Below, piece by piece: positions 36,643-47,189 of a stretch of DNA of 64,000 nucleotides. A model generated the notes under the pieces. That model did no database searches. It had not been told where the DNA came from and was given only the letters and a program-made list of their open reading frames with translations. The position numbers were made by a program, and so were the translations under genes. This DNA comes from Sphaerotilus microaerophilus (lineage in GTDB: Bacteria > Pseudomonadota > Gammaproteobacteria > Burkholderiales > Burkholderiaceae_C): the NCBI RefSeq assembly GCF_023734135.1, contig NZ_AP025730.1, forward strand, positions 2,542,001-2,606,000, in the 5' to 3' direction. Position 1 is the first letter of the stretch. Every line of letters starts with the position of its first letter.

Positions 36643-36682
36643 GCCTCTCTCCTCAATGGGTTGTGGGCAAATACCAAAGGTC

Positions 36683-36709
36683 TGCAATCGTCCCGTACGG
36701 ACCATTGCA
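36683..36709. promoter_or_regulatory. 27-base near-palindrome upstream of yjcH-actP
   Basis: TGCAATCGTCC (36683-36693), five central bases and GGACCATTGCA (36699-36709) form an inverted repeat matching at 10 of 11 positions. It sits 41-67 bases before the yjcH ATG, where a regulator of acetate uptake could bind. The protein that binds it cannot be named from sequence. Confidence 0.5.
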
Positions 36710-36851
36710 AAATCTTTCGTTACGAGTCTAGGAATGCTCTCTGACCAAAAGCTGACCTAGTTCATGGTTTTGTGCCTAGGACTTACCCTCATGTCCGGTT
36801 CCCGTGGGATACGGGCCGCGGCATGGGCGGGCGGGAAAGCCGCCGGGCTGC

Positions 36852-39137
36852 TCATTCCGGCAGGCTGTACCGGGTGGCCGGGCCCCGGCCGGTCTGGCGC
36901 AGCAGGCCACGTTCGGTCAGCGCGGCCAGGTGCTTGGAGGCGGTGGCCGGGCCGACGCTGCACAGCTGTGCGTAGGCGCTCTTGTGGATGTGGCCGTGCG
37001 CCAGCAGGTGCTGCAGCAGCGCGGCCTGGCGGGGGCGGTCGAGCATGTCGCCGGCACGGGCCTGCCAGGGGTCGGCCAGTTGCTGGGCGCGGGTCAGGGC
37101 CCGGCTGAAGAGCTGCTGCAACTCGGCGAAGTCGGCCGCAAAGGCGTCGCCCAGGCCGTGGCGCTCGATCAGCGCCTGGGCGGCCTCGCGTTCCTTGGCA
37201 GCGATGCTCAGGTAGGCGCGGGCGATGCGCAGCGTGGCGTGCACCTGCTCGGCCGGTGCGCCGGGCACCGCCAGCAAGGCGCGCTGGCGGTGCACCTCGG
37301 CGATTTCCTCGGCGTGGGCCACCGACTCCTGCGGCAGCAGCCGGTCGTAGGCCAGATCGTCGCGTGGGCCGAGGATCTCGGCCTTGAGGTTGCGAGCGGC
37401 TTCCAGGTGGGCCGGATCGCTCTCGTGCGGCCAGGCGGCCAGCGCCGCGGCCACGTGGGTGTCGCCGCGCTGCTCGTCGGCCGGGTCGTCGCTGGCCTGG
37501 AAGCGCTTGAAATGCGCCTCGGCCAGGTTGTAGTGCGCACGCCGCACCACCAGCGCCAGGCCGGCGCGCTCGGCCAGTTGCAGCGCCTGGGTGTAGGACT
37601 GGATGGCCTGCTCGTAGCGCCCCTGCCAGAACCAGGTGGCGCCCAGGTTCAGGTGGGTGCTGGCCACGGTTTCGGGCTCGACGGCGATGCGCTCGGCCAG
37701 CGCCAGCACCCGCTGCGAGGCCTCGATCGCCCGCGGAAAGTCCTTCGCATCGCCGTACAGCAGCGCCAGGTTGCCGTAGGTCTTGAGCACGGACTGCTGG
37801 TCGCCGATGCGCTCGTACAGGTTCAACGCGCGGTGCTTGTGCTCCAGGGCGCGGCGGATCTCGCCGGCACGGCGCCAGTACTCGCCCCAGGTCTGTTCCA
37901 GCGCGGCGAGCACCTCGGGCGCGATGCCGGCGGTGTCGCGCAGCGCCTGGGCGTTGTCGAGCACGGCGCGCGAACGCGGATCGTTGCGCAGCACGAACAC
38001 CCAGGCCAGCCGGGTCAGCGTCTGCAGGGTTTCCTCGGCGATGCGCGTGTCGACCGGCTCGCCGCCGGCTTCCAGGGCGCGGCGCAGGAAGTCGGCGCTG
38101 TCCTGGTAGCAGGCAAAGGCGCGGTCGGCATCGCGGGCCTCGTGGAACTTGCCCAGCGCACCGTAGGCGGCGCCCAGCAGCAGGTCGTCGCTGGCCTCGT
38201 CGGCCAGGCGCAGTGCCTGTTCGTAGGCCTGGCGCTCGCGCTCCGGGGCATCGTGGATGCGCCAGAGTGCGGCCTGGGCCAGGCACAGGTCGAATCGCTC
38301 GCGGGTGGTCAGCGGCTCGGCCGCCAGCGCAGCGATCAACGCCGGGGTCTCCGGGTGGCTGGCCAGCTCGATGCGTGCGCGCTGCAGCACCCGCAGGCAG
38401 GCGCCCACGTCGTGGGCCTGCAGGTGGTGCCACCAGGCCGAGGCCGGGTCGCCATCGACCAGCGCCTGCGTGGCCTGGCGCTGGTGCCAGTCCTGGCGGG
38501 CCTGCGCCGGCTGCTGTGCCCACTGCGCGGCCAGGGCCTGGTCGACCACCGCACGCAGGCTCAGCCGGTCAGCGCCCTGGCACGGCAGCTCGCGCAGCAC
38601 CGCGGCGAGCTGGCGCCGGCCCTTGTCGAGGGCGCGGTACAGCGTGCTCGGGCCGATCGCCCACAGGCCGCAGAGGTTGTCCACCACCGGCTCGTCGGCG
38701 CGGCGCCGGTATCGCTGCGGGAAGTCGGGTACCGCTTCGAAGCCGTGCTGGCACATCAACGCCAGCAGCGGACGCCAGCTGGTGCGTTCCAGCCAGCTGG
38801 CGTGGTCGATGCCGGTGAGCCCAGGCAGGCGGTCCGGCCGCAGTTGCGCGAGGCCCCAGCGCAGCAGCCAGGTCACCGCCCGGGCGCGCCCGCTGTCGCC
38901 GCGCAGGGCATCGCCGCCGGCACCGAGCAGCGGCTGCAGCCAATGGCGCTCCACCCAGCGGGTCAGGCGCGGGCGGCGGTGCAGCAGCTCTTCCAGCGCG
39001 CCGGCCCGGTGCGCCGCCAGGGCAGCGTCGACGAGGGACTCGACCAGGGCCGCGCTGGGCCAGGCCGAGCCGGCGCCGGCGTGGGCCGGTCCGCTGGCCG
39101 GGCCAGTTGGTAACGAGCTGTGAGCGGCGCGGGTCAT
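36852..39137 (-). CDS. TPR-repeat protein with C-terminal winged-helix domain
   Basis: 761 residues from the ATG at 39137; the open frame runs on upstream, but that part reads non-domain sequence across the divergent promoter. Residues ~1-330 are Trp/Arg/Leu-rich helical sequence of no recognised family. Tetratricopeptide-like repeats run from about 330 to 620 (YGALGKFHEARDADRAFACY, TYGNLALLYGDAKDFPRAIEASQ, LNLGATWFWQGRYEQAIQSY). The last 60 residues (AALLQHLLAHGHIHKSAYAQL … ASKHLAALTERGLL) form an ArsR/MarR-like winged helix. It is divergent from the C11 peptidase gene with 160 bases between, so it may regulate that locus. Signal unknown. Confidence 0.82.
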   Translation of the reverse strand: MTRAAHSSLPTGPASGPAHAGAGSAWPSAALVESLVDAALAAHRAGALEELLHRRPRLTRWVERHWLQPLLGAGGDALRGDSGRARAVTWLLRWGLAQLRPDRLPGLTGIDHASWLERTSWRPLLALMCQHGFEAVPDFPQRYRRRADEPVVDNLCGLWAIGPSTLYRALDKGRRQLAAVLRELPCQGADRLSLRAVVDQALAAQWAQQPAQARQDWHQRQATQALVDGDPASAWWHHLQAHDVGACLRVLQRARIELASHPETPALIAALAAEPLTTRERFDLCLAQAALWRIHDAPERERQAYEQALRLADEASDDLLLGAAYGALGKFHEARDADRAFACYQDSADFLRRALEAGGEPVDTRIAEETLQTLTRLAWVFVLRNDPRSRAVLDNAQALRDTAGIAPEVLAALEQTWGEYWRRAGEIRRALEHKHRALNLYERIGDQQSVLKTYGNLALLYGDAKDFPRAIEASQRVLALAERIAVEPETVASTHLNLGATWFWQGRYEQAIQSYTQALQLAERAGLALVVRRAHYNLAEAHFKRFQASDDPADEQRGDTHVAAALAAWPHESDPAHLEAARNLKAEILGPRDDLAYDRLLPQESVAHAEEIAEVHRQRALLAVPGAPAEQVHATLRIARAYLSIAAKEREAAQALIERHGLGDAFAADFAELQQLFSRALTRAQQLADPWQARAGDMLDRPRQAALLQHLLAHGHIHKSAYAQLCSVGPATASKHLAALTERGLLRQTGRGPATRYSLPE

Positions 39138-39200
39138 GGGGAGGTCCTCATCGTCTGGTGATCGTCTGAGGCGGGGGCCGCGGAGCCTGCCGGTCGTGCT

Positions 39201-39229
39201 TTGGCATGCGAACCAAGCGCGGCTAGTGT
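39201..39229 (+). promoter_or_regulatory. Candidate promoter of the C11 peptidase gene
   Basis: TTGGCA (five of six to the -35 consensus), a 17-base spacer and TAGTGT (39224-39229). The -35 box overlaps an inverted TTGG…CCAA repeat (39201-39216). A direct repeat ATCGTCTG occurs twice nearby, within about 39150-39175. Either could bind the divergent winged-helix protein. Confidence 0.45.
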
Positions 39230-39297
39230 ATCGAGCACCCGGCGGCGCTCGTGAGCGCAGGGCTGGGTGCCCCTGCCAACCTTGGAGGAACCCGATC

Positions 39298-40929
39298 ATG
39301 AGCGCGACGACAACCACGGCGACGATCACGAACACGACCACGGCGCAGCTGCCCGGCTTGCAGGGTGCACGCCCGGGCGATCCCGCCACCCGCGGGGTGG
39401 TGTTGGCGGTGTACGCACCGTTTGGCAGCGACGCGGTGCTCAGCACCTACCCGGACGGCGAATCGACCACGCTGGCGCAGCACCCGCTGCTGCGCCACCT
39501 GGCGGAAGTGGCGGCGGCCGGCACCCACGTGGTGGCGCTGCTGGACCGGTTGGACGACGACACCCAGCTCATCGAGATCGATGCCTACGCCCCGGCCAGG
39601 GTGCGCATCACCGCGCGCTGGAAGCAGGACATGGCCGATGTCCACACCCTGGCCGGCTTCCTGCGCCATGCCCACCGCGCCCACCCGGAGGCGGCCATCG
39701 TGCTGGCGCTGGAAGGCCACGGGGCCGGCTTCCTGCCGGAGATCGACCGCCGCCAGCTCAGCGCCGCCAACCTGACACGCGGCGGGCAGATCGAGTGGCG
39801 CCTGACGGGCGAGGGCGGCGCCCCCACGCTGCCGCAGGGCTCACCGATCCTGCCGCAGGGCTCGCCCATCCTGCCCCAGGGGTCACCGATCCTGCCGCAG
39901 GGCTCGCCGATCCTGCCGGCCAACCACATGCCGCTGTCCACCTGGGCGCTGGGCGAGGGGCTGCGCCGGGCCCAGGCCGCCGGGGTGCCGCGGCTGGCGG
40001 CGATCCACTTCAACAACTGCTTCAACATGGCCGTGGAGCTGCTGCACACCGTGGCGCCCTATGCGCAGGTGGCCACGGGCTACCCCAACTACAACTTCTT
40101 CACCGCCGGGGCGGCCTACCCCGCGGTGTTCCGGCAGTGGCAGCAGGCGGGCAGCGCCTCGGCGCTGCAGGTGGGGCACTGGCTGGCCGACGGCAACCGG
40201 GCGGTGCTGGCCGCCAAGGGAAATCACCCGACCGCCGGCTGCGTGATCGAGCTCACGCGCCTGCACGAGATCACCGAGCGGCTCGATGACCTGGCCGATG
40301 CGCTGCTGGCGGCGCTGCGCACGCCCGGCGGCATGCTTTCGCGCCAGGCGGTGGTGCAGCACATCCGCCGCGCCATCGTGCAGGCGCAGCAGTACGACAC
40401 CGAGGCCGGACCCGCGCTGGACACCCCCGACGAGCTGACCGACCTGTACAGCCTGGCGCGCACGCTGATGGACCAGGACTTCGGCCCCTACCGCGTGCAC
40501 GAGGCCGCGGCCCGGCTGCGCCACGCGCTGCAGGGCATCAAGCGCTACGGCGACAGCGACACCCCCTGGCTGGCCCCCGGGGTGCACTGGGACTTCTCCG
40601 AGAAGACGCTGGCGATGAACATCTTCCTGCCCGACCCGCTGCTGCAGGGCCACTGGGACTGGCGCTCGCCCTTCTACCTCGACGTCAATCCCGACCCCAC
40701 CCTGCCGCGCGTGCAGCCGCACATCATCGACTTCGTCAAGACCACCGACTGGGTGGACTTCCTGATCGAATACCACAAGGGCACCCAGTTCAAGTCGCTG
40801 CGCGCCGCGGCCATCCCCGAGTTCCCGGTGTTCAACGAGCGCTACCAGCCGCCCGAGCCGCCGCGGCCGACGCAGGGCGGCGATGACGGCGGCTGCGATC
40901 ACGGCAAGCCGCCCTCGTCCCGGCGCTGA
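39298..40929 (+). CDS. Clostripain-family (C11) cysteine peptidase with repeat linker
   Basis: 543 residues from the ATG at 39298, behind TTGGAGGAA. It is a caspase-like fold peptidase: the catalytic His is His141 (LALEGHGAGF) and the Cys is Cys241 (IHFNNCFNMAVELL), both in typical context. Between them lie four perfect copies of LPQGSPI plus a final LP (residues 178-207). In characterised C11 enzymes the dyad is about 45-55 residues apart; here it is 100, and the extra length includes this linker. No signal peptide is seen, so the protein is cytoplasmic or exported by an unusual route. It ends in a Gly/Asp/His-rich tail. A strong terminator follows. Substrate specificity is not readable. Confidence 0.85.
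   Translation: MSATTTTATITNTTTAQLPGLQGARPGDPATRGVVLAVYAPFGSDAVLSTYPDGESTTLAQHPLLRHLAEVAAAGTHVVALLDRLDDDTQLIEIDAYAPARVRITARWKQDMADVHTLAGFLRHAHRAHPEAAIVLALEGHGAGFLPEIDRRQLSAANLTRGGQIEWRLTGEGGAPTLPQGSPILPQGSPILPQGSPILPQGSPILPANHMPLSTWALGEGLRRAQAAGVPRLAAIHFNNCFNMAVELLHTVAPYAQVATGYPNYNFFTAGAAYPAVFRQWQQAGSASALQVGHWLADGNRAVLAAKGNHPTAGCVIELTRLHEITERLDDLADALLAALRTPGGMLSRQAVVQHIRRAIVQAQQYDTEAGPALDTPDELTDLYSLARTLMDQDFGPYRVHEAAARLRHALQGIKRYGDSDTPWLAPGVHWDFSEKTLAMNIFLPDPLLQGHWDWRSPFYLDVNPDPTLPRVQPHIIDFVKTTDWVDFLIEYHKGTQFKSLRAAAIPEFPVFNERYQPPEPPRPTQGGDDGGCDHGKPPSSRR
39829..39918 (+). repeat. 21-bp tandem repeat inside the C11 peptidase gene
   Basis: Four 21-base units (39829-39849, 39850-39870, 39871-39891, 39892-39912) plus 6 bases encode LPQGSPI repeats. 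The units differ only at third codon positions (for example TCA/TCG, CCG/CCC), so the protein sequence is exact while the DNA has begun to drift, which suggests the repeat is kept by selection. Confidence 0.9.
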
Positions 40930-40987
40930 CGCCCTCCGGCCCGCGTCCGACGCCCGCCGTTTCGAACGCTTCCATCCCCACGCCATG

Positions 40988-41024
40988 CCCCCGGCTGTTC
41001 GCGCAGCCGGGGGTTTCTTTTTTT
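40988..41024 (+). terminator. Strong rho-independent terminator after the C11 peptidase gene
   Basis: CCCCCGGCTG (40988-40997) pairs with CAGCCGGGGG (41004-41013), with a 6-base loop, followed by TTTCTTTTTTT. Confidence 0.92.
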
Positions 41025-41256
41025 GGGCGCTTCACGGCGTCCGGGCCGATCGTCTCGTGGTCGTCCATTCCCACGGGCTGTGGGGGCTGACGCGGCGCAT
41101 CGGAACGGGAAGGGGGCAGCGCTGCAATGCGTTCCAAGGCAGCGGCCCCGGGGCCTCCAGGCGAAATCCCCCGGCGGCCCCGCCCGACGGCAGCGCCCCC
41201 AGCGGCTGCGAGGCGCCGTCCGCAACCCCCCGCGGCCACACCGACCGGAGAACATC
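41025..41256. other. Gene-free stretch between the terminator and the 769-residue protein gene
   Basis: With the terminator this makes a 327-base gap. I see no gene or clear promoter boxes; a GGCCCCGGGGCC palindrome and G-tracts are present. A promoter for the next genes must lie here if the terminator is effective. Confidence 0.5.
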
Positions 41257-43566
41257 ATGGCGATCACGATGCAAGGCAGCTGGACGCTGCGTTTCAAGAG
41301 CAAGGCGGCTGCCTGGGCGCAGCGCTTCGTCGTCAGCGGCGCGGCCACCGGCAATGGCGTCTTCGCCGGCACGGCTGGCACGGCGGTGTTCGTCACCGGC
41401 ACGCAGTGGTCGGTCAAGCTGCAGCACCAGGCGCCGGGCGACCTCTGGCGCGATTCGGCGCAGCGCATCGGCACGCCCGGCGTCGCTGGCGGGCTGCTGA
41501 GCTTCGACATCCGCAGCGATGACGGGGGCAACGGCAACGGCGGCGATGCCGACTACGACGACCTGGTCATCACCGCCTCGATGCCGGCCAGCGGGTCGGA
41601 CTACGTGGTGCATGGCCGCGTGCGCAGCTACCAGGGCCTGTGCCTGTTCAATCCCTGCCGGCCCGACTTCGTGGTGATCGACCCGCCCTTCCACCTGCCC
41701 ACGCTGTGCGAGCGCTACCCGCTGCTCTGCGAGGTGCTCACCCAGCTCTACCCGGAGCGCATCCGTGGCCCGCGCCTGCCGCTGCCCGACCCGGCGCCCG
41801 ATGCGCTGCGCGACCTCACGCCACTGGTGATCCCGACCGGGCTGCCGCAGCGTGCCACCGGCATGGTGTTCCGCTCCGCATTCACGACGGCGCCGCCATC
41901 CACGCAGCCACCTACGCAGCAACCCGTGCTCACCCACCTGGCCGCCAGCGGCAAGGCGCAGAGCCAGGCGTCGCTGGATGCCATCGAGGCGCAGGCCGTT
42001 GCCGCGCTCAAGACCACGACCCGCCAGGTGGCCTTCGACGCTGCCCCGGTGCGTGCCGGGGCCGGCCGCCTGAACGCGGCTCAACTGCAGGGCATTGCCG
42101 CCATCCGCGATGCGGCGCTGCGCCTGCGCTGCAGCGTGGCGCCGGCACCCGGCCTGCTGCTGCGCTTCCAGGAGTACGACCGCACCGCCAGCGAGCGCGC
42201 CGGTGCGCCCTACACCGGCAGCGGCGCCCGGCAGGACCTGGGCCTGGCGGTCACCGACGAGCAGGGCAACTACCTCTTCCGCTTCAGCCCGACGCTGACC
42301 GACCTGGCCGAGGAAACCGCCGACGTGGCTGCCGGCGAGGCCCTGGCCACCCAGCTGCGCCCGGACGTGATCGTGCAGGTGCTGGGCACCGGGCTGACGA
42401 TGAGCTGGGAGTCGGCGCCGTACTACAACATCACCAACCTGCAGCGCATCGACCTGTGTGTGCCGCGCGAGCGGGTGCACCCGAGCCAGGGCTGCGGCGG
42501 CGACCGGGTGATCCAGCGCGTGGGCGACATCCTGATGCTGCACAGCGCGCTGGATGCGCCCGGGCACGTCAACACGCTTGACGCCGAGGGACGCATCACC
42601 TGCCGCAACGCCAACGCGCCGCAGGTGGACTGCGCCGGCTGGCGCGGTGCGCTGCGGCTGTACGGCTGCTTCGCCTCCGATGCCGCGCTGCGCTACGCCG
42701 TGTACTTCAAGCGGCCCGAGGCGCTGCGCTGGCAGGCGGTCAACCAGGCACATGCGCTGAACTACGTGCCCGACCTGATCGCCGGCGGCAAGACGGTGGG
42801 GCCCTTCCTGCGCCAGGTGGTGCCGGGCGTGCCGCTGGTCGGCGGGCCGGCCCTGGGCAGTGCGGTGGACGTGCCCACCTACGACAACCACGACCGTGAC
42901 CTGAACTGGATCGAGAACGACCTCAAGCTCATCCTCGACAGCAGCCTCTACCGGCCGTGGGACGAGCCGGGGCCGGTGCAGTGGCGCATCGAGGCCTATG
43001 ACGCGGCCGGGCAGTTGGTGGCAGGCAGCGTCGACCAGTTCACGCTCTACATCCACAACCGCACGGCGATCGCCGGGCGGCCGGGCAACGGCAGCAAGGG
43101 CGACATCGCCGGCATCCGCATGGGGACGACCGAGCTGGGCGACTGCGGGCTGTTCGAGCTGACCCACCCCGCCGCGCCGCTGACCGTGCGCCACCGCGCC
43201 GTGGACCCGGAGGGCTTCCTGCACAGCTGGAGCCTGGCCGTCACGCGGGGCAACAACGTGCCGGTGGCCACCTTCGTGGCCGGCGGGGTGACGCCCAAGG
43301 CCTATACCGCGGCGGTGCTGCCGGCCACGCCCTGCGACTTCACCGGCAGCCGCGACGAGCCCACCGCCGACCTGGACGACTACGTCGCCACCACGCTGCA
43401 GCCGGGCGGCTCCGGTGCGGCGGTGACCAGCTGGCTGCCGCCGGGGCACGGCTTCTGCGCCTTCGCGTTCACGCTGCGCGCCCACGACCGGGTCACCGAC
43501 GGCCGCAGCGCCTACCCGCAGGTGGTGTTCTGGCAGGACCTGATCGGGCTGAGCCTGCCCGGTTGA
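41257..43566 (+). CDS. Large protein of unknown function with N-terminal lectin-like Ca-binding motif
   Basis: 769 residues from the ATG at 41257 (CGGAG nearby). The frame is open further upstream without a ribosome site. Residues ~1-112 look like a small beta-sandwich ending in a glycine/aspartate loop with DADYDDLVITASMP, resembling the Ca-binding DNDYND motif of LecB-type lectins or DUF4114 domains. A Cys-bearing region (LCLFNPCRPDF…LCERYPLLCEVL) follows, then helices, a LAVTDEQGNYLFRF segment like carboxypeptidase-regulatory folds, and a long C-terminal beta-rich part. No signal peptide or membrane segment. I do not recognise the whole protein; the lectin link is inference from one motif. 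First of four co-directional genes. Confidence 0.75.
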   Translation: MAITMQGSWTLRFKSKAAAWAQRFVVSGAATGNGVFAGTAGTAVFVTGTQWSVKLQHQAPGDLWRDSAQRIGTPGVAGGLLSFDIRSDDGGNGNGGDADYDDLVITASMPASGSDYVVHGRVRSYQGLCLFNPCRPDFVVIDPPFHLPTLCERYPLLCEVLTQLYPERIRGPRLPLPDPAPDALRDLTPLVIPTGLPQRATGMVFRSAFTTAPPSTQPPTQQPVLTHLAASGKAQSQASLDAIEAQAVAALKTTTRQVAFDAAPVRAGAGRLNAAQLQGIAAIRDAALRLRCSVAPAPGLLLRFQEYDRTASERAGAPYTGSGARQDLGLAVTDEQGNYLFRFSPTLTDLAEETADVAAGEALATQLRPDVIVQVLGTGLTMSWESAPYYNITNLQRIDLCVPRERVHPSQGCGGDRVIQRVGDILMLHSALDAPGHVNTLDAEGRITCRNANAPQVDCAGWRGALRLYGCFASDAALRYAVYFKRPEALRWQAVNQAHALNYVPDLIAGGKTVGPFLRQVVPGVPLVGGPALGSAVDVPTYDNHDRDLNWIENDLKLILDSSLYRPWDEPGPVQWRIEAYDAAGQLVAGSVDQFTLYIHNRTAIAGRPGNGSKGDIAGIRMGTTELGDCGLFELTHPAAPLTVRHRAVDPEGFLHSWSLAVTRGNNVPVATFVAGGVTPKAYTAAVLPATPCDFTGSRDEPTADLDDYVATTLQPGGSGAAVTSWLPPGHGFCAFAFTLRAHDRVTDGRSAYPQVVFWQDLIGLSLPG

Positions 43567-43614
43567 GTTTGGCGGTTTGAGCCCCTCACTGTCCTTTCCT
43601 CGAAGGAGTTCGTC

Positions 43615-44055
43615 ATGGACACATCCCCCGTCCCACCGGGCGCGGCCGATCTGGCGCTGGCCTGGTCCGCCGCGGCGCTGGCGGTCTGGCGCCTGACCCA
43701 CTTGCTGCATGCCGAGGCCGGCCCCGGCGGGGTCTTCGCCCGGCTGCGCGATCTGGCCGGCACCGGCCTGGCCGGCCAGGCGCTGGGCTGCTTCTACTGC
43801 CTGAGCCTGTGGGTGGCTGCGCCGGTGGCTTGGCTGCTGCCGGCTGGCTCATTGGGGGGCGCGTTGGGCGGCGTGCCTGGGGGCCTGCTGCTGTGGCTGG
43901 CGCTGTCGGGCGCGGCGGTGCTGCTGCAGCGGCTGACCGAGCCAGCCCCGCTGGGCGCGCCCATCGCCGCGGTGCGCGCGGATCCGGCAGCGGCACTGCC
44001 ATGGCCGATCGCGGTCGAGGACCCGCCTCGCCACCCGGGCGCGCCGACGCACTGA
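43615..44055 (+). CDS. DUF1360-like small membrane protein
   Basis: 146 residues behind AAGGAG. WRLTHLLHAEAGPGGVFARLRDL followed by LGCFYCLSLWVAAPVAWLLPAG matches the DUF1360 pattern (RLTRL…E.GP…CxxCLSLWVG), a family of small membrane proteins of unknown role found in phages, sporulators and others. Three hydrophobic segments (about 12-26, 57-78 and 81-105) are followed by a Pro/Ala-rich tail. It lies 48 bases after the 769-residue gene and 34 before the next, so it is probably part of one operon. Confidence 0.72.
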   Translation: MDTSPVPPGAADLALAWSAAALAVWRLTHLLHAEAGPGGVFARLRDLAGTGLAGQALGCFYCLSLWVAAPVAWLLPAGSLGGALGGVPGGLLLWLALSGAAVLLQRLTEPAPLGAPIAAVRADPAAALPWPIAVEDPPRHPGAPTH

Positions 44056-44089
44056 CCTTCACCTTCATCCACCTCACCAGGAGACGCCC

Positions 44090-44356
44090 ATGTGCAACTG
44101 CACCTCCTCCAGCCGACGCTTCCACCCTGGCACCGGCCCCCTCGTTGCTCCCACTGCCTGGCTGCACCCGCCTGCCGCGGCGCCGCGCGACCGGGCGCTG
44201 TTCGAGTACATCGGCGCCACCGGCCTGACCGTCATCGGCCCGGCCAGCGGGCGGCGCTACCGCTTCGAGCGGCCTGGCGCCCAGGTCGGCATCGATGCGC
44301 GCGACCGCGGCGCCCTGGAGCGCCTGCCGCAGCTGCGTTGCCTGAGCACCGCATGA
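44090..44356 (+). CDS. Small Cys-rich-start protein of unknown function
   Basis: 88 residues behind CAGGAGAC. The N-terminus MCNCTSSS has a CxC pair; the C-terminal half (FEYIGATGLTVIGPASGRRYRFERPGAQ, in two parts, then VGIDARDRGALERLPQL) is a compact beta-strand-rich unit like small phage or secretion-system accessory proteins, but I cannot name it. Reading-frame quality, ribosome site and 34-base spacing support a real gene. Its stop codon falls within an 11-bp tandem repeat array. Confidence 0.68.
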   Translation: MCNCTSSSRRFHPGTGPLVAPTAWLHPPAAAPRDRALFEYIGATGLTVIGPASGRRYRFERPGAQVGIDARDRGALERLPQLRCLSTA

Positions 44357-44397
44357 ATACCGCCTGAGTACCAACTGAATACCAACTGAGTACCACC
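44343..44397 (+). repeat. 11-bp tandem repeats across the stop codon of the 88-residue gene
   Basis: Five adjacent 11-base units of the form TGARYACCRMC: TGAGCACCGCA, TGAATACCGCC, TGAGTACCAAC, TGAATACCAAC, TGAGTACCACC. The first unit is still coding (LST A) and the second supplies the TGA stop. Because 11 is not a multiple of 3, TGA appears in every frame in turn. Confidence 0.85.
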
Positions 44398-44495
44398 CGA
44401 GGGTCGTCCAGCGCGACGCCTTCCAGTCCCGAGTCCTGTCTTCACCTCGTCACCCGGCCCGCATCCCCTGCGGGCCACCCTCCCTGGAGCCCATC

Positions 44496-45899
44496 ATGGA
44501 AACCACCCTGCACACCCCCTCCGCCGCCGCTGCCGCCACCGCCAGCCGCGAGCTGGTCGACTACAACGACCTGCCCTGCTGCCCGCAGCTGGAGACCGAC
44601 CGCATCTGCGACGTCGTCGACCTGCGCCGCCGGCTGGTCTTCCCGACCCCGGTGCGTGGCCCGAAGGAGCAGCCCATCAAGGTGGAGGTGATCTTCCACA
44701 CCCGCTTCACCCGCTGCCCGGGCCCGTTGGCGCTGGGCGACATCGCCTACAGCACCACGCTGCTGCCCGGCGAGAAGGTGCGCCTGGCCACCACCGACCG
44801 ACGCAGCCGCTTCAGCTTCGACAGCGAGTCCAAGCTGAGCTGGCGCAGCGAGCAGATCAGCGAGGAGCAGTACCGGCTGCGCGCGCTGCGCGCCTTCATG
44901 GCCGACGAGAACTCGGTCGACCGCGGCAGTGACCGCTATAGCGAGCAGGGCAAGTGGGACTTCCACGGCGACGCCTCCGGCTCGCTGGGCTTCTTCTCGG
45001 CCAGCGCGGACACCAATGCCCGCGGCAGCCACAGCGCCTCCAGCGCACGCGACTACCTGCGCGAGCACCGCGCACACGCCGAGATGAGCGACCACCAGTC
45101 GGTGGAGGCCACCCGCAAGGCGCACAGCGTGTCGATCGGCGAGGTGTCCAGCCGCAGCCACGTGGAGGGCGAGTCCGAGGACCACTTCGAGGCCTCCTCG
45201 CGCGAGTTCCGCAACCCGAACACCTGCCACGCCGTCACCTTCATGTTCTACCGGCTCAACAAGCTGGAGACCATCAAGTTCGAGCTGCTGGCCATCGAGC
45301 GGCGCGTGCTCGACCCCGTGGCGCCCGCGCCGGTGGCGGGCAACCCCTTCCGTGCGGTGGGCCAGCTCGCCACCATCCCGCAGGAGCTGCCGGCCACCTC
45401 CGGCCAGCGCGCCGAGGTGCTCTCGCGCAGCATCGCGGCCGACCAGCAGGTGCTGGTGCAGGGCATCACGCCACTGCCGGGCGCGGCGCGTGGCCAGGTG
45501 CTGCTGGGCGCGGGCAGCGTGTCCATCGCCGCGCTGGCACAGGCGAACCTCGGAGAGGGCGAACCGCTGCCCGACGAGCTGCGCGCGAAGGCGCTGCAGT
45601 TCGTCGACGCCCAGCTGATGGCGCAGGGCCTGCTGCAGGAAGGCGGCGTGGTGTCGCGCAGCCTGCTCAAGGAGGTCAACTACAGCCGCACCACCAGCCT
45701 GCCCACGGCCGGCGTGATCGTGAAGAGCTGCATGGACGAGTGTGGCATCTGCGAGCCGCGGGTCGAGCGGCGCGAGGAGCTGGAGCTGGAGCGCCTGGCG
45801 CTGCAGAACAAGCTGCTGGAGCGCCAGATCGAGCTGCTCGGCCAGGCCCAGGAGTACCGCTGCTGCCCGGGCGTCTCGACCGAAGCCGAGCCGGCATGA
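44496..45899 (+). CDS. Protein of unknown function with Cys cluster and C-terminal coiled coil
   Basis: 467 residues behind GGAGCCC. Layout: CC pair at residues 28-29, a conserved-looking beta-rich part (VEVIFHTRFTRCPGPLALGDIAYSTTLLPGEKVRL), a Ser/His/Glu-rich middle (about 160-235), a helical part, then CMDECGIC (C-x3-C-x2-C, a possible metal site), a charged coiled coil (about 420-455) and a CC pair near the end. No signal peptide or membrane segment. I recognise no family. It ends the four-gene run that starts at 41257; the next gene has its own LexA-type promoter. Confidence 0.75.
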   Translation: METTLHTPSAAAAATASRELVDYNDLPCCPQLETDRICDVVDLRRRLVFPTPVRGPKEQPIKVEVIFHTRFTRCPGPLALGDIAYSTTLLPGEKVRLATTDRRSRFSFDSESKLSWRSEQISEEQYRLRALRAFMADENSVDRGSDRYSEQGKWDFHGDASGSLGFFSASADTNARGSHSASSARDYLREHRAHAEMSDHQSVEATRKAHSVSIGEVSSRSHVEGESEDHFEASSREFRNPNTCHAVTFMFYRLNKLETIKFELLAIERRVLDPVAPAPVAGNPFRAVGQLATIPQELPATSGQRAEVLSRSIAADQQVLVQGITPLPGAARGQVLLGAGSVSIAALAQANLGEGEPLPDELRAKALQFVDAQLMAQGLLQEGGVVSRSLLKEVNYSRTTSLPTAGVIVKSCMDECGICEPRVERREELELERLALQNKLLERQIELLGQAQEYRCCPGVSTEAEPA

Positions 45900-45950
45900 C
45901 CCTGCGGGCGGGCGGGATGTGGCGAGCGGGTTCTGCGTGAGTGTCAAATA

Positions 45951-45966
45951 CTGTATAAATAAACAG
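45951..45966. promoter_or_regulatory. LexA (SOS) box before the radical SAM gene
   Basis: CTGT-N8-ACAG with an AT-rich centre (ATAAATAA), a full match to the E. coli-type SOS box. TATAAA inside it can serve as the -10 box, so LexA would block transcription directly. It lies 33 bases before the ATG at 45999. Confidence 0.75.
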
Positions 45967-45998
45967 TCATTAAGTGCCGCCATCCGAACCGACCGACC

Positions 45999-47189
45999 AT
46001 GTCCCGACCCGTCGATCCCCGCGCTGATCCTCCTTGCGACGCCCCCAGTGACGGAGGTGGCGATCTGCGGCTGCCACCGCCACCCGCGGCCCTGCGCGGG
46101 CGCGGCACCGGCTGGCAGGTGGCGCACCGCTTCGAGCGCCGCGCGCGAGAGGCCTTTGACGACGGCTGGGGGGCGCTGGACCAAGTGGTGCAGGCGACGC
46201 AGGAGGAGCAGGCCGAGCCGCCGGCGCCGCACACCGAGGTGCTGGAGGAGCGCGCCGGCGAGATCCTGGCGCACAACGATTCGCCGGACGTGCCCTTCGA
46301 GTTTTCGATCAACCCCTACCGCGGCTGCGAGCATGGCTGCATCTACTGCTACGCGCGGCCGACACACGGCTACCTGAACCTGTCGCCGGGGCTGGACTTC
46401 GAGACGAAGATCGTCGCCAAGGTCAACGCCGCCGAGCGCCTGCGCGTGGCGCTGCGCCGCCCCTCCTGGCGGCCGCAGTCGATCAACCTGGGCTCGGCCA
46501 CCGACGCCTACCAGCCGGTCGAGCGCCGGCTGCGTCTCACCCGCGGCGTGCTGGAGGTGTTGCACGAGGCGGGCCAGCCGGTGTCCATCGTCACCAAGTC
46601 GGGCGGCATCGTGCGCGACCTGGACCTGCTGGCCGAGATGGCCGCGCGCCGCCAGGTGCTGGTGTTCATCAGCGTGACCACGCTGGACAACGCGCTGTCG
46701 CGCATCCTGGAGCCGCGTGCTACTGCGCCGCAGCGCCGGCTGGCGGCGATCCGGCGGCTGGCCGACGCGGGGGTGTGGGTGGGGGTGAACGTGGCACCGA
46801 TCATCCCCTTCGTCAACGAGCCGGAGATCGAGCAGATCCTGGCCGCCGCCGCGCAGGCCGGTGCCCGCAGCGCGCACTGGACGGTGGTGCGCCTGCCCTG
46901 GGAGGTGAACCCCCTGTTCCAGCACTGGCTGGCGCAGCACTTTCCGGACCGGGCCGAGCGCGTCATGGCGCGCCTGCGCGAGATGCGCGGCGGCCGGGCC
47001 TACGACGCCGATTTCCGCCACCGCATGAAGGGCGAGGGCCCGTGGGCACAACTGATCCGCCAGCGGGTGGAGAAGGGCGCCGCGCGGGTGGGCCTGCTGC
47101 GCGAGACGCCGGTACTCGACACCTCGGGCTTTTGCCCACCCCGGGCACCGCAGGCCGTGGGGGCACCCGAGCAGGGCAGCCTGTTCTGA
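45999..47189 (+). CDS. Radical SAM protein of the PA0069 / SPL-related family
   Basis: 396 residues. The 4Fe-4S-SAM motif is C110-x3-C114-x2-C117 (CEHGCIYCYARPTHGY), the arrangement of spore photoproduct lyase-related proteins, with the NPYRGCEHGC lead-in. LGSATDAYQP, SIVTKSGGIVRDLDLL and VNVAPIIPFVNEPE are family motifs. The function is unproven; DNA-lesion chemistry is a reasonable guess given the family and the LexA box immediately upstream. No operon partner follows closely. Confidence 0.9.
   Translation: MSRPVDPRADPPCDAPSDGGGDLRLPPPPAALRGRGTGWQVAHRFERRAREAFDDGWGALDQVVQATQEEQAEPPAPHTEVLEERAGEILAHNDSPDVPFEFSINPYRGCEHGCIYCYARPTHGYLNLSPGLDFETKIVAKVNAAERLRVALRRPSWRPQSINLGSATDAYQPVERRLRLTRGVLEVLHEAGQPVSIVTKSGGIVRDLDLLAEMAARRQVLVFISVTTLDNALSRILEPRATAPQRRLAAIRRLADAGVWVGVNVAPIIPFVNEPEIEQILAAAAQAGARSAHWTVVRLPWEVNPLFQHWLAQHFPDRAERVMARLREMRGGRAYDADFRHRMKGEGPWAQLIRQRVEKGAARVGLLRETPVLDTSGFCPPRAPQAVGAPEQGSLF

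Follow-up and report, generated by a model that had tools for sequence, protein, structure and literature searches.

What unites a caspase-fold peptidase with the row of proteins of no recognised family encoded beside it on a bacterial chromosome, and what might they do together? The question is raised by a locus of Sphaerotilus microaerophilus (assembly GCF_023734135.1), situated within 64,000 nucleotides of the forward strand of NZ_AP025730.1 (positions 2,542,001-2,606,000), hereafter the window, to which all coordinates in Table 1 refer. Six genes make up the locus: on the minus strand, one for a protein with TPR repeats and a C-terminal winged helix and, on the plus strand, those for a family C11 (clostripain-family) peptidase, a protein of 769 residues (P769), a small DUF1360-like membrane protein, and proteins of 88 and 467 residues (P88 and P467). 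A preliminary description, made from the sequence alone, supposed a system built around the C11 peptidase, with a regulator, a membrane partner and likely targets all encoded locally. The comparisons presented here indicate that the locus is real, was probably transferred as a unit and has its own predicted regulon. Our preferred reading, to which we give an even chance, is that it constitutes a mobile, self-contained, regulator-controlled peptidase-effector cassette, in which P467 would insert into membranes as an effector under the control of a partner peptidase. Compared loci and genomes carry our designations (L and G numbers, respectively).

The locus and its empty counterpart

The open reading frames (ORFs) and starts of the plus-strand genes are as initially described, the five genes being consecutive and each having a GGAG- or AGGAG-like site before its ATG. 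The intergenic distances are 160 bp (TPR-C11), 327 bp (C11-P769), 48 bp (P769-DUF1360), 34 bp (DUF1360-P88) and 139 bp (P88-P467). The proposal that these genes form a multi-gene locus is borne out by their joint absence from a genome of the same genus, G822, where blastn places the counterparts of window positions 36654 and 46083 at a distance of 378 bp, with about 9.4 kb and all six genes missing; this is the one informative case among five same-genus genomes, since in the other four the two flanking genes fall on separate contigs or one of the pair was not found. The island segment has a G+C content of 72%, its flanks 66% and 70%, and the window 69%.

A merely fortuitous neighbourhood of unrelated genes might be argued from the observations that P467 often stands alone in other genomes and that C11 often occurs without P467. 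Given the empty site, the pair of predicted operators described below and the recurrence of the arrangement in Chloroflexota, we regard this explanation as extremely improbable and have discarded it. The locus is more than a product of chance because, besides the empty site and the flanking operators, C11 and TPR genes are paired at every one of the 27 loci checked.

These 27 loci (the window, L016, L017, L106-L115 and 14 more) all have a divergent homologue of the TPR-winged-helix gene adjoining C11. On the sequences compared, the constant partner of C11 is thus the TPR regulator, and the notion of a locus organised around the peptidase has to be revised, the more so as ten sibling loci, in the stretches viewed, show no P467, P769 or P88. 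The start of the TPR gene, initially placed at 39446, is most likely at 39137 by comparison with orthologues. The protein matches the Pfam models TPR_12 and TPR_1 above cut-off and helix-turn-helix models below it; in PADLOC it matches only TPR and SoFic-type models (E about 0.002).

The peptidase assignment held, with 35.3 bits against PF03415 (cut-off 25.8) and a catalytic His (EGHGAG) and Cys (NCFN) that are invariant across 12 aligned homologues; no signal peptide was seen in the window protein. An Asp two residues before the Cys, the S1 residue associated with basic specificity, is described as highly conserved in PMC4850288. The window protein has Asn at this position, and among the 12 aligned homologues the Asp is present in L107 and L115; we take it as a feature of specificity that is not decisive for membership in C11. 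Between His and Cys lies a heptapeptide tandem repeat without Lys or Arg, located in the stretch that corresponds to the self-cleavage region of PmC11 (PMC4850288). Its DNA units differ synonymously in the window, and the heptapeptide unit is uniform within one C11 and species-specific (SPILPQG, SPLLPGG, SPVLPEV, SPILPSG, SPLLPMG, SPILPTG). Most C11 members have the repeat; L113 and L114 carry a degenerate form of it, and L115 and L177 have none.

Peptidases of the window type match in 23 of 399 family genomes at E ≤ 0.001, one of these marginally, and in a class sample of 369 genomes the own genome is joined by a single marginal match. Of 199 genomes from the class to which L016 belongs, 17 matched, strongly only in the case of the query's own genome, the rest being at E 1.7e-15 or worse. 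G841 and G962 have three and two C11 copies, respectively (L169, L170, L181, L182, L184); at the additional copies the O2 site has decayed and another gene comes next. The C11 and TPR trees are mostly unresolved and give no direction of transfer. A phage or plasmid origin was considered and set aside: P467 of the window had no plasmid or phage match at E ≤ 1e-5, the P467 alignment none among viral contigs in a search with a pattern prefilter, C11 none among plasmids, and a P88 relative none among phages.

A pair of predicted operators

The regions between TPR and C11 genes in Burkholderiales and Anaerolineae have in common a direct repeat, ATCGTCT-N4-ATCGTCT. It occurs twice in the window at up to two mismatches, where 0.18 matches would be expected: between the TPR and C11 genes (O1) and behind C11 (O2). 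In nine genomes, 24 matches with at most one mismatch were found, of which 13, including all 8 exact ones, flank C11; the reversed pattern yielded none across the same genomes at that threshold. In G143, two such matches lie away from C11, and the sites at its C11 have two mismatches. With up to two mismatches, O2 is present after C11 at 13 of 13 loci and then at 10 of 13 further ones, or 23 of 26 in Burkholderiales and Chloroflexota, the three loci without it being additional copies in multi-copy genomes; the chance of a single O2 is about 0.001, assuming even base composition. The corresponding counts for O1 are 10/13 and 6/13, or 16 of 26. Two of the 26 family C11 loci, that of G966 at a contig end and that of G029 with E 9e-4, were left out of these operator counts. 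An alignment of 13 O2 regions, taken from Burkholderiales and Chloroflexota, shows promoter-like boxes at a near-constant distance behind O2 in most of them; the boxes represent a majority consensus and are weaker in L111 and L115.

In a control set of 42 P467 loci, the repeat was found only in L016 and L017, both of which have TPR and C11 genes, the best sites in the other 40 having 3-6 mismatches; 800 bp upstream of P467 were covered, a distance that operators farther upstream of longer operons would escape. The operator pair joins the regulator, the peptidase and the genes of no recognised family in one predicted regulon. As O2 and a terminator-like stem separate C11 from P769, the plus-strand genes probably form at least two transcription units; two such stems were found in the region against 1.9 expected in shuffled sequences, so that they are also expected by chance.

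In two Anaerolineae genomes, G566 and G567, operator-like sites with one mismatch precede similar S8 subtilase genes by 272 and 295 bp (L142 1500-1517 and L146 1500-1517, respectively); peptidases encoded elsewhere may thus belong to the regulon as well. Another site with one mismatch lies 107 bp upstream of a gene for an EAD7-domain protein in G566 (L144). Regulators near other P467 loci are of different types, namely AAA/NACHT in Thiomonas (Pfam) and sigma54-activator and AraC types (by eye). At the Thiomonas locus L028, whose neighbour is another type of regulator, a different direct repeat with an 11-bp period, perhaps an analogous operator, is found about 220 bp upstream of P467.

Exchangeable genes behind the second operator

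What follows O2 differs between genomes. In the window it is P769, followed by the DUF1360-like gene, P88 and P467, and in L016 and L017 it is P467 itself. A DUF1360-like gene occupies the position in L106 (below the Pfam cut-off) and L171, and a gene for an RTX protein in L111 (Pfam) and L172 (by eye). At ten loci (L107, L108, L110, L114, L115, L168, L169, L170, L176, L178) it encodes a small protein bearing an IGSAGAF-like motif; nine of these proteins were aligned. A small protein of transmembrane type is encoded in L112, L113, L173, L174 and L177, with a histidine kinase gene next in L112. In L181 and L182 the site has decayed to four mismatches, and the next gene encodes an ABC-transporter protein (L181 by Pfam), which we read as belonging to the type I secretion system type. 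Ten sibling C11 loci, viewed over 10-18 kb each, revealed no P467, P769 or P88, and DUF1360 only in L106; nine are informative downstream, the contig of L109 ending 305 bp after C11, with its cargo out of view.

Such variability could mean that the genes share a switch and otherwise have separate jobs: TPR and C11 would be a sensing pair, in which the peptidase provides feedback by processing the regulator or a signal, and whatever lies behind O2 would be mere output, the P467 operon being one of several such outputs and no substrate of C11. The diversity of the first gene behind O2 (RTX, CATASP-like, transmembrane type with histidine kinase, DUF1360) and the nine informative siblings with TPR and C11 genes and no P467 in view are what such an arrangement would produce. 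It accounts less well for the association of P467 with several peptidase families at loci without TPR-C11, for its fusion to S8 and for the reappearance of the TPR-C11-P467 combination in another phylum, and we consider it possible although unlikely.

P467 and its association with peptidases

Relatives of P467 were found at 50 loci in genome contigs of at least six phyla (Chloroflexota, Nitrospirota, Pseudomonadota, Bacteroidota, Acidobacteriota, Verrucomicrobiota and KSB1). They are present in 7 of 200 family genomes and 8 of 369 class-sample genomes, counts that include the own genome and distant relatives. The window protein is nested among Chloroflexota proteins, a pattern pointing to horizontal transfer: it falls in a four-member clade (support 100/98) and is sister to L016 (87/84).

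A peptidase gene belongs to the P467 cluster at no fewer than 14 of the 50 loci, with eight families represented: C11 (L016, L017), C1 (L060), C2 (L026), C70 (L030), S8 (L025, L028, L031), A4 (L050, L059, L062, L063), Trypsin_2 (L056) and the NAL1 type (L057). The 14 are a lower bound, neighbour sequences having been inspected for 37 loci, some others in part and the remainder through BLAST clusters. The neighbours were first chosen by eye from protein ends; Pfam confirmed eight plus the C11 of L016, and L050, L062 and L063 (A4), L028 (S8) and L017 (C11) were assigned on BLAST similarity. The NAL1 match covers the N-terminal domain, and we take NAL1 proteins to be trypsin-like, with weak Trypsin_2 support in one relative. 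Since C1, C2 and C70 are all papain-like and the two trypsin types possibly related, about five clans rather than eight would be represented. In a control, one of 30 genes drawn from more than 4.5 kb away in P467 loci encodes a peptidase; this figure counts genes, nine of them without any Pfam match, whereas 14 of 50 counts loci.

C11 was not found at 48 of the 50 loci within the sequence covered, many being limited by contig ends, and at least 12 of these 48 have an adjoining peptidase of another family. The candidate role of C11 as the constant partner of P467 was rejected on this count and on that of the siblings without P467. Frequent P467 loci with no C11 nearby are what the preliminary description had named as counting against it, and for C11 itself this objection holds. 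Judged from gene neighbourhoods, the P467-peptidase link survives in a form broader than C11 alone, because peptidases of other families adjoin P467 and because a distant P467 domain forms the C-terminal part of S8 subtilases in G143 and G118, which have no obvious signal peptide at the start (by eye). Of the local components supposed at the outset, a regulator gene, a candidate membrane protein and peptidase-linked proteins of no recognised family are indeed there, whereas C11 is not the constant core. Among the 200 family genomes, C11 occurs in 3 of the 7 with P467 and in 12 overall (p 0.005, or 0.04 with the own genome left out), and the ten genomes behind P467 loci include three with C11-family genes, two in the cassette and one unlinked. 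No peptidase was seen at up to 36 of the 50 loci, several of which end at contig ends, and many copies in Acidobacteriota and Anaerolinea stand alone; L029, the sister of L030, has no C70 gene in view. A Lon-like ORF upstream of P467 in L037 (by eye) is outside the peptidase count, as is a trypsin-like gene on the opposite strand of L081, a locus not among the 50.

The AlphaFold2 (AF2) model of P467 is rich in long β strands. A Ser/Gly-rich, hairpin-like insertion with a hydrophobic tip shows, by eye, an amphipathic-looking pattern in all 39 aligned homologues, in a region with a predicted local distance difference test (pLDDT) score below 50. The recurrent Cys motifs of the preliminary description proved real for P467, in which ten Cys positions are kept in 38 or 39 of the 39. 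Comparison with PDB gave nothing significant, and there is weak similarity to aerolysin-type and related β-pore-forming proteins. A giant-virus (Yasminevirus) protein, BFVD A0A5K0U6Q4, is a clear structural relative (E 1e-14). In other bacteria, proteins of about 900-1370 residues (L080 7221-11081, L015, L082) carry or resemble a distant P467-like region, and the genome of L080 also has a mitochondrial-carrier-like gene, by eye.

A protein with these properties might instead serve, together with P769, as a surface or extracellular assembly trimmed by the peptidase, with no killing or defence involved. Its Cys-rich, β-rich character and its frequent stand-alone occurrence would suit such a maturation role, as would the RTX-repeat protein among sibling cargos and the ABC-transporter gene next to two operator-decayed copies. 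The window operon has no visible signal peptide or secretion gene, and the S8-P467 fusions likewise lack an obvious signal peptide; we judge this alternative to be decidedly unlikely.

Relation to known systems and proposed function

The composition of the locus matches no named system that could be found, as had been surmised. With the C11 peptidases PmC11, fragipain and the doripains, the window enzyme shares PF03415, the His/Cys dyad and a loop between the two residues; it differs in the pairing with a TPR-winged-helix gene, the loop of heptapeptides free of Lys and Arg, the Asn in place of the S1-type Asp and the lack of a visible signal peptide.

Bacterial gasdermin operons, according to PMC9612521, encode the effector beside caspase-like and other peptidases, to which an effector candidate near a peptidase gene (C11 in the locus, and some peptidase next to no fewer than 14 of the 50 P467 relatives) bears a likeness. 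P467 is longer, Cys-rich and without detected gasdermin similarity, and its locus has a regulator gene and an operator pair; there was no significant fold match and no profile match to the gasdermin N-terminal fold, the absence of gasdermins from the structural match lists being uninformative either way. Protease-gated nuclease pairs and canu loci combine one effector family with several peptidase families, including caspases, and TPR domains are among the associated proteins (PMC12799240). The association of one effector family with several peptidase families is shared by P467, and TPR by the present locus; in the window no nuclease was detected, and the genes are linked at the level of transcription, an operator having different cargo behind it in different genomes. 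Aerolysin-type β-pore-formers, some of which are activated by proteolysis, resemble P467 in their long β strands, the amphipathic-looking Ser/Gly-rich insertion and the weak structural similarity.

The name CATRA refers to caspase and TPR, and a caspase-fold peptidase with TPR is what the locus has, so that C11 might be the caspase-like component of an antiphage system belonging to the CATRA/EAD conflict type. PMC8195603 terms these systems caspase-dependent. Consistent with such a relationship, the IGSAGAF-motif protein of L107 (7490-7729) weakly matches CATASP, the CATRA-associated small protein (E 0.0034; 17.7 bits, below the cut-off of 29), and Anaerolineae genomes have operator-like sites upstream of EAD7 and S8 genes. 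Seven window proteins contain no CATRA or EAD domain (Pfam, E ≤ 1), no CATASP small protein was found in the window, and the five plus-strand proteins match no PADLOC model of known anti-phage systems at E ≤ 1, which makes this assignment very unlikely.

The gene set, the island, the operator pair, the exchange of cargo and the link between P467 and peptidases all follow from sequence comparison, whereas operator binding, activation, cleavage, membrane action and role are inferred. Returning to the peptidase-effector cassette, we propose that the TPR-winged-helix protein would sense a signal and bind the two direct-repeat operators, controlling itself and C11 at O1 and, by activation rather than repression, switching on at O2 the operon behind the peptidase, here P769-DUF1360-P88-P467. 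P467 would most likely insert into a membrane by means of long β strands around the Ser/Gly-rich hairpin with its hydrophobic tip. Until then it may be held inactive by, or assembled with, P769 and anchored near the membrane via DUF1360/P88; the partner peptidase, which is C11 in this genome and of other families elsewhere, would release or mature it through cleavage of P467 or P769. The role would presumably be self-limiting defence or antagonism. A bolder proposition, which we consider doubtful, is that P467 is the first of a new class of membrane effectors gated by peptidases. With a relative in a giant virus, it would have spread horizontally through six or more bacterial phyla, its activating peptidase would repeatedly have given way to one of another clan, and in this genome it would have been taken up as cargo behind O2 of a portable control unit made up of TPR and C11. 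In the parts of the literature that were searched, there was no description of a TPR-C11 unit or a P467-like family, the search not having been aimed at the repeat motif.

Parts of the immunity of bacteria depend on peptidase-activated effectors, which are also relevant to how programmed cell death originated. In the present case, a conserved effector-like family is associated with peptidases of eight families and about five clans, and the unit of regulator and peptidase has a cargo slot, defined by an operator, with contents that differ between genomes. The operator sequence offers a handle for finding more cargo genes, and the P467-peptidase pairs are candidates for enzymes and their substrates.

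Accompanying genes and other features

Table 1. Positions of the genes, predicted sites and repeats of the locus within the window
Feature	Position	Strand	Basis
TPR/winged-helix protein (winged helix C-terminal), 761 aa, divergent from C11, predicted to act on O1 and O2	36852..39137	-	Pfam, orthologue comparison
Predicted operator O1, between TPR and C11	39150..39167	+	exact match to ATCGTCT-N4-ATCGTCT
C11 (clostripain-family, caspase-fold) peptidase, 543 aa, His141/Cys241	39298..40929	+	PF03415
Heptapeptide tandem repeat (LPQGSPI)4 between C11 catalytic His and Cys	39829..39918	+	Tandem Repeats Finder (TRF), 21 bp x 4.3
Terminator-like stem and T-run after C11	40987..41024	+	stem search, shuffled control
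Predicted operator O2, after C11 stop, ahead of cargo operon	41049..41066	+	2 mismatches
Promoter-like boxes behind O2 (GCATCGGAACGGGA ... TGCAATG)	41097..41129	+	alignment of 13 O2 regions
P769, first cargo gene, 769 aa, no family	41257..43566	+	ORF; homologues L060, L021
DUF1360-like small membrane protein, 146 aa	43615..44055	+	PF07098 below cut-off
P88, 88 aa, N-terminal Cys motif	44090..44356	+	homologues beside DUF1360
P467, last cargo gene, 467 aa, unnamed family	44496..45899	+	50 loci, AF2 model, alignment
Island, absent from same-genus genome G822	36655..46082 (approximate)	.	blastn

P769, P88 and P467 had been described as belonging to no recognised family, and four libraries agree, with no hit above threshold in Pfam or NCBIfam and, in PADLOC and PHROGs, none with an E value under 0.1. 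Homologues of P769 lie beside P467 in L060 (57% identity) and L021 (35%). The former, from Terriglobia, has genes for a C1 peptidase, P467, P769, DUF1360 and P88 in a row, and the latter, from Nitrospira, has P467, P769 and DUF1360 together. Proteins of 690-910 residues at other P467 loci link by profile to one another and weakly to P769 (best hhalign E 1.6e-4, probability 51%); the structure model of P769 is unusable (mean pLDDT 38).

The DUF1360-like label stands in part, the window protein scoring 13.7 bits against a cut-off of 21 and its syntenic relative in L037 passing at 35 bits. DUF1360 homologues occur near P467 in L021, L037, L050, L059, L060, L062, L063 and L011, and also in L106 and L116. 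P88 homologues adjoin DUF1360 in L060 and L037, with a weak match in L004, and an L059 relative matches in L116, where a P769-like gene, DUF1360, P88 and a NAL1-type gene are found with P467 not in view. An 11/22-bp tandem repeat is situated at window positions 44340-44395, between P88 and P467. The locus is bordered by a DUF485/symporter gene pair, named by eye, on one side and a PA0069-type radical SAM gene on the other.

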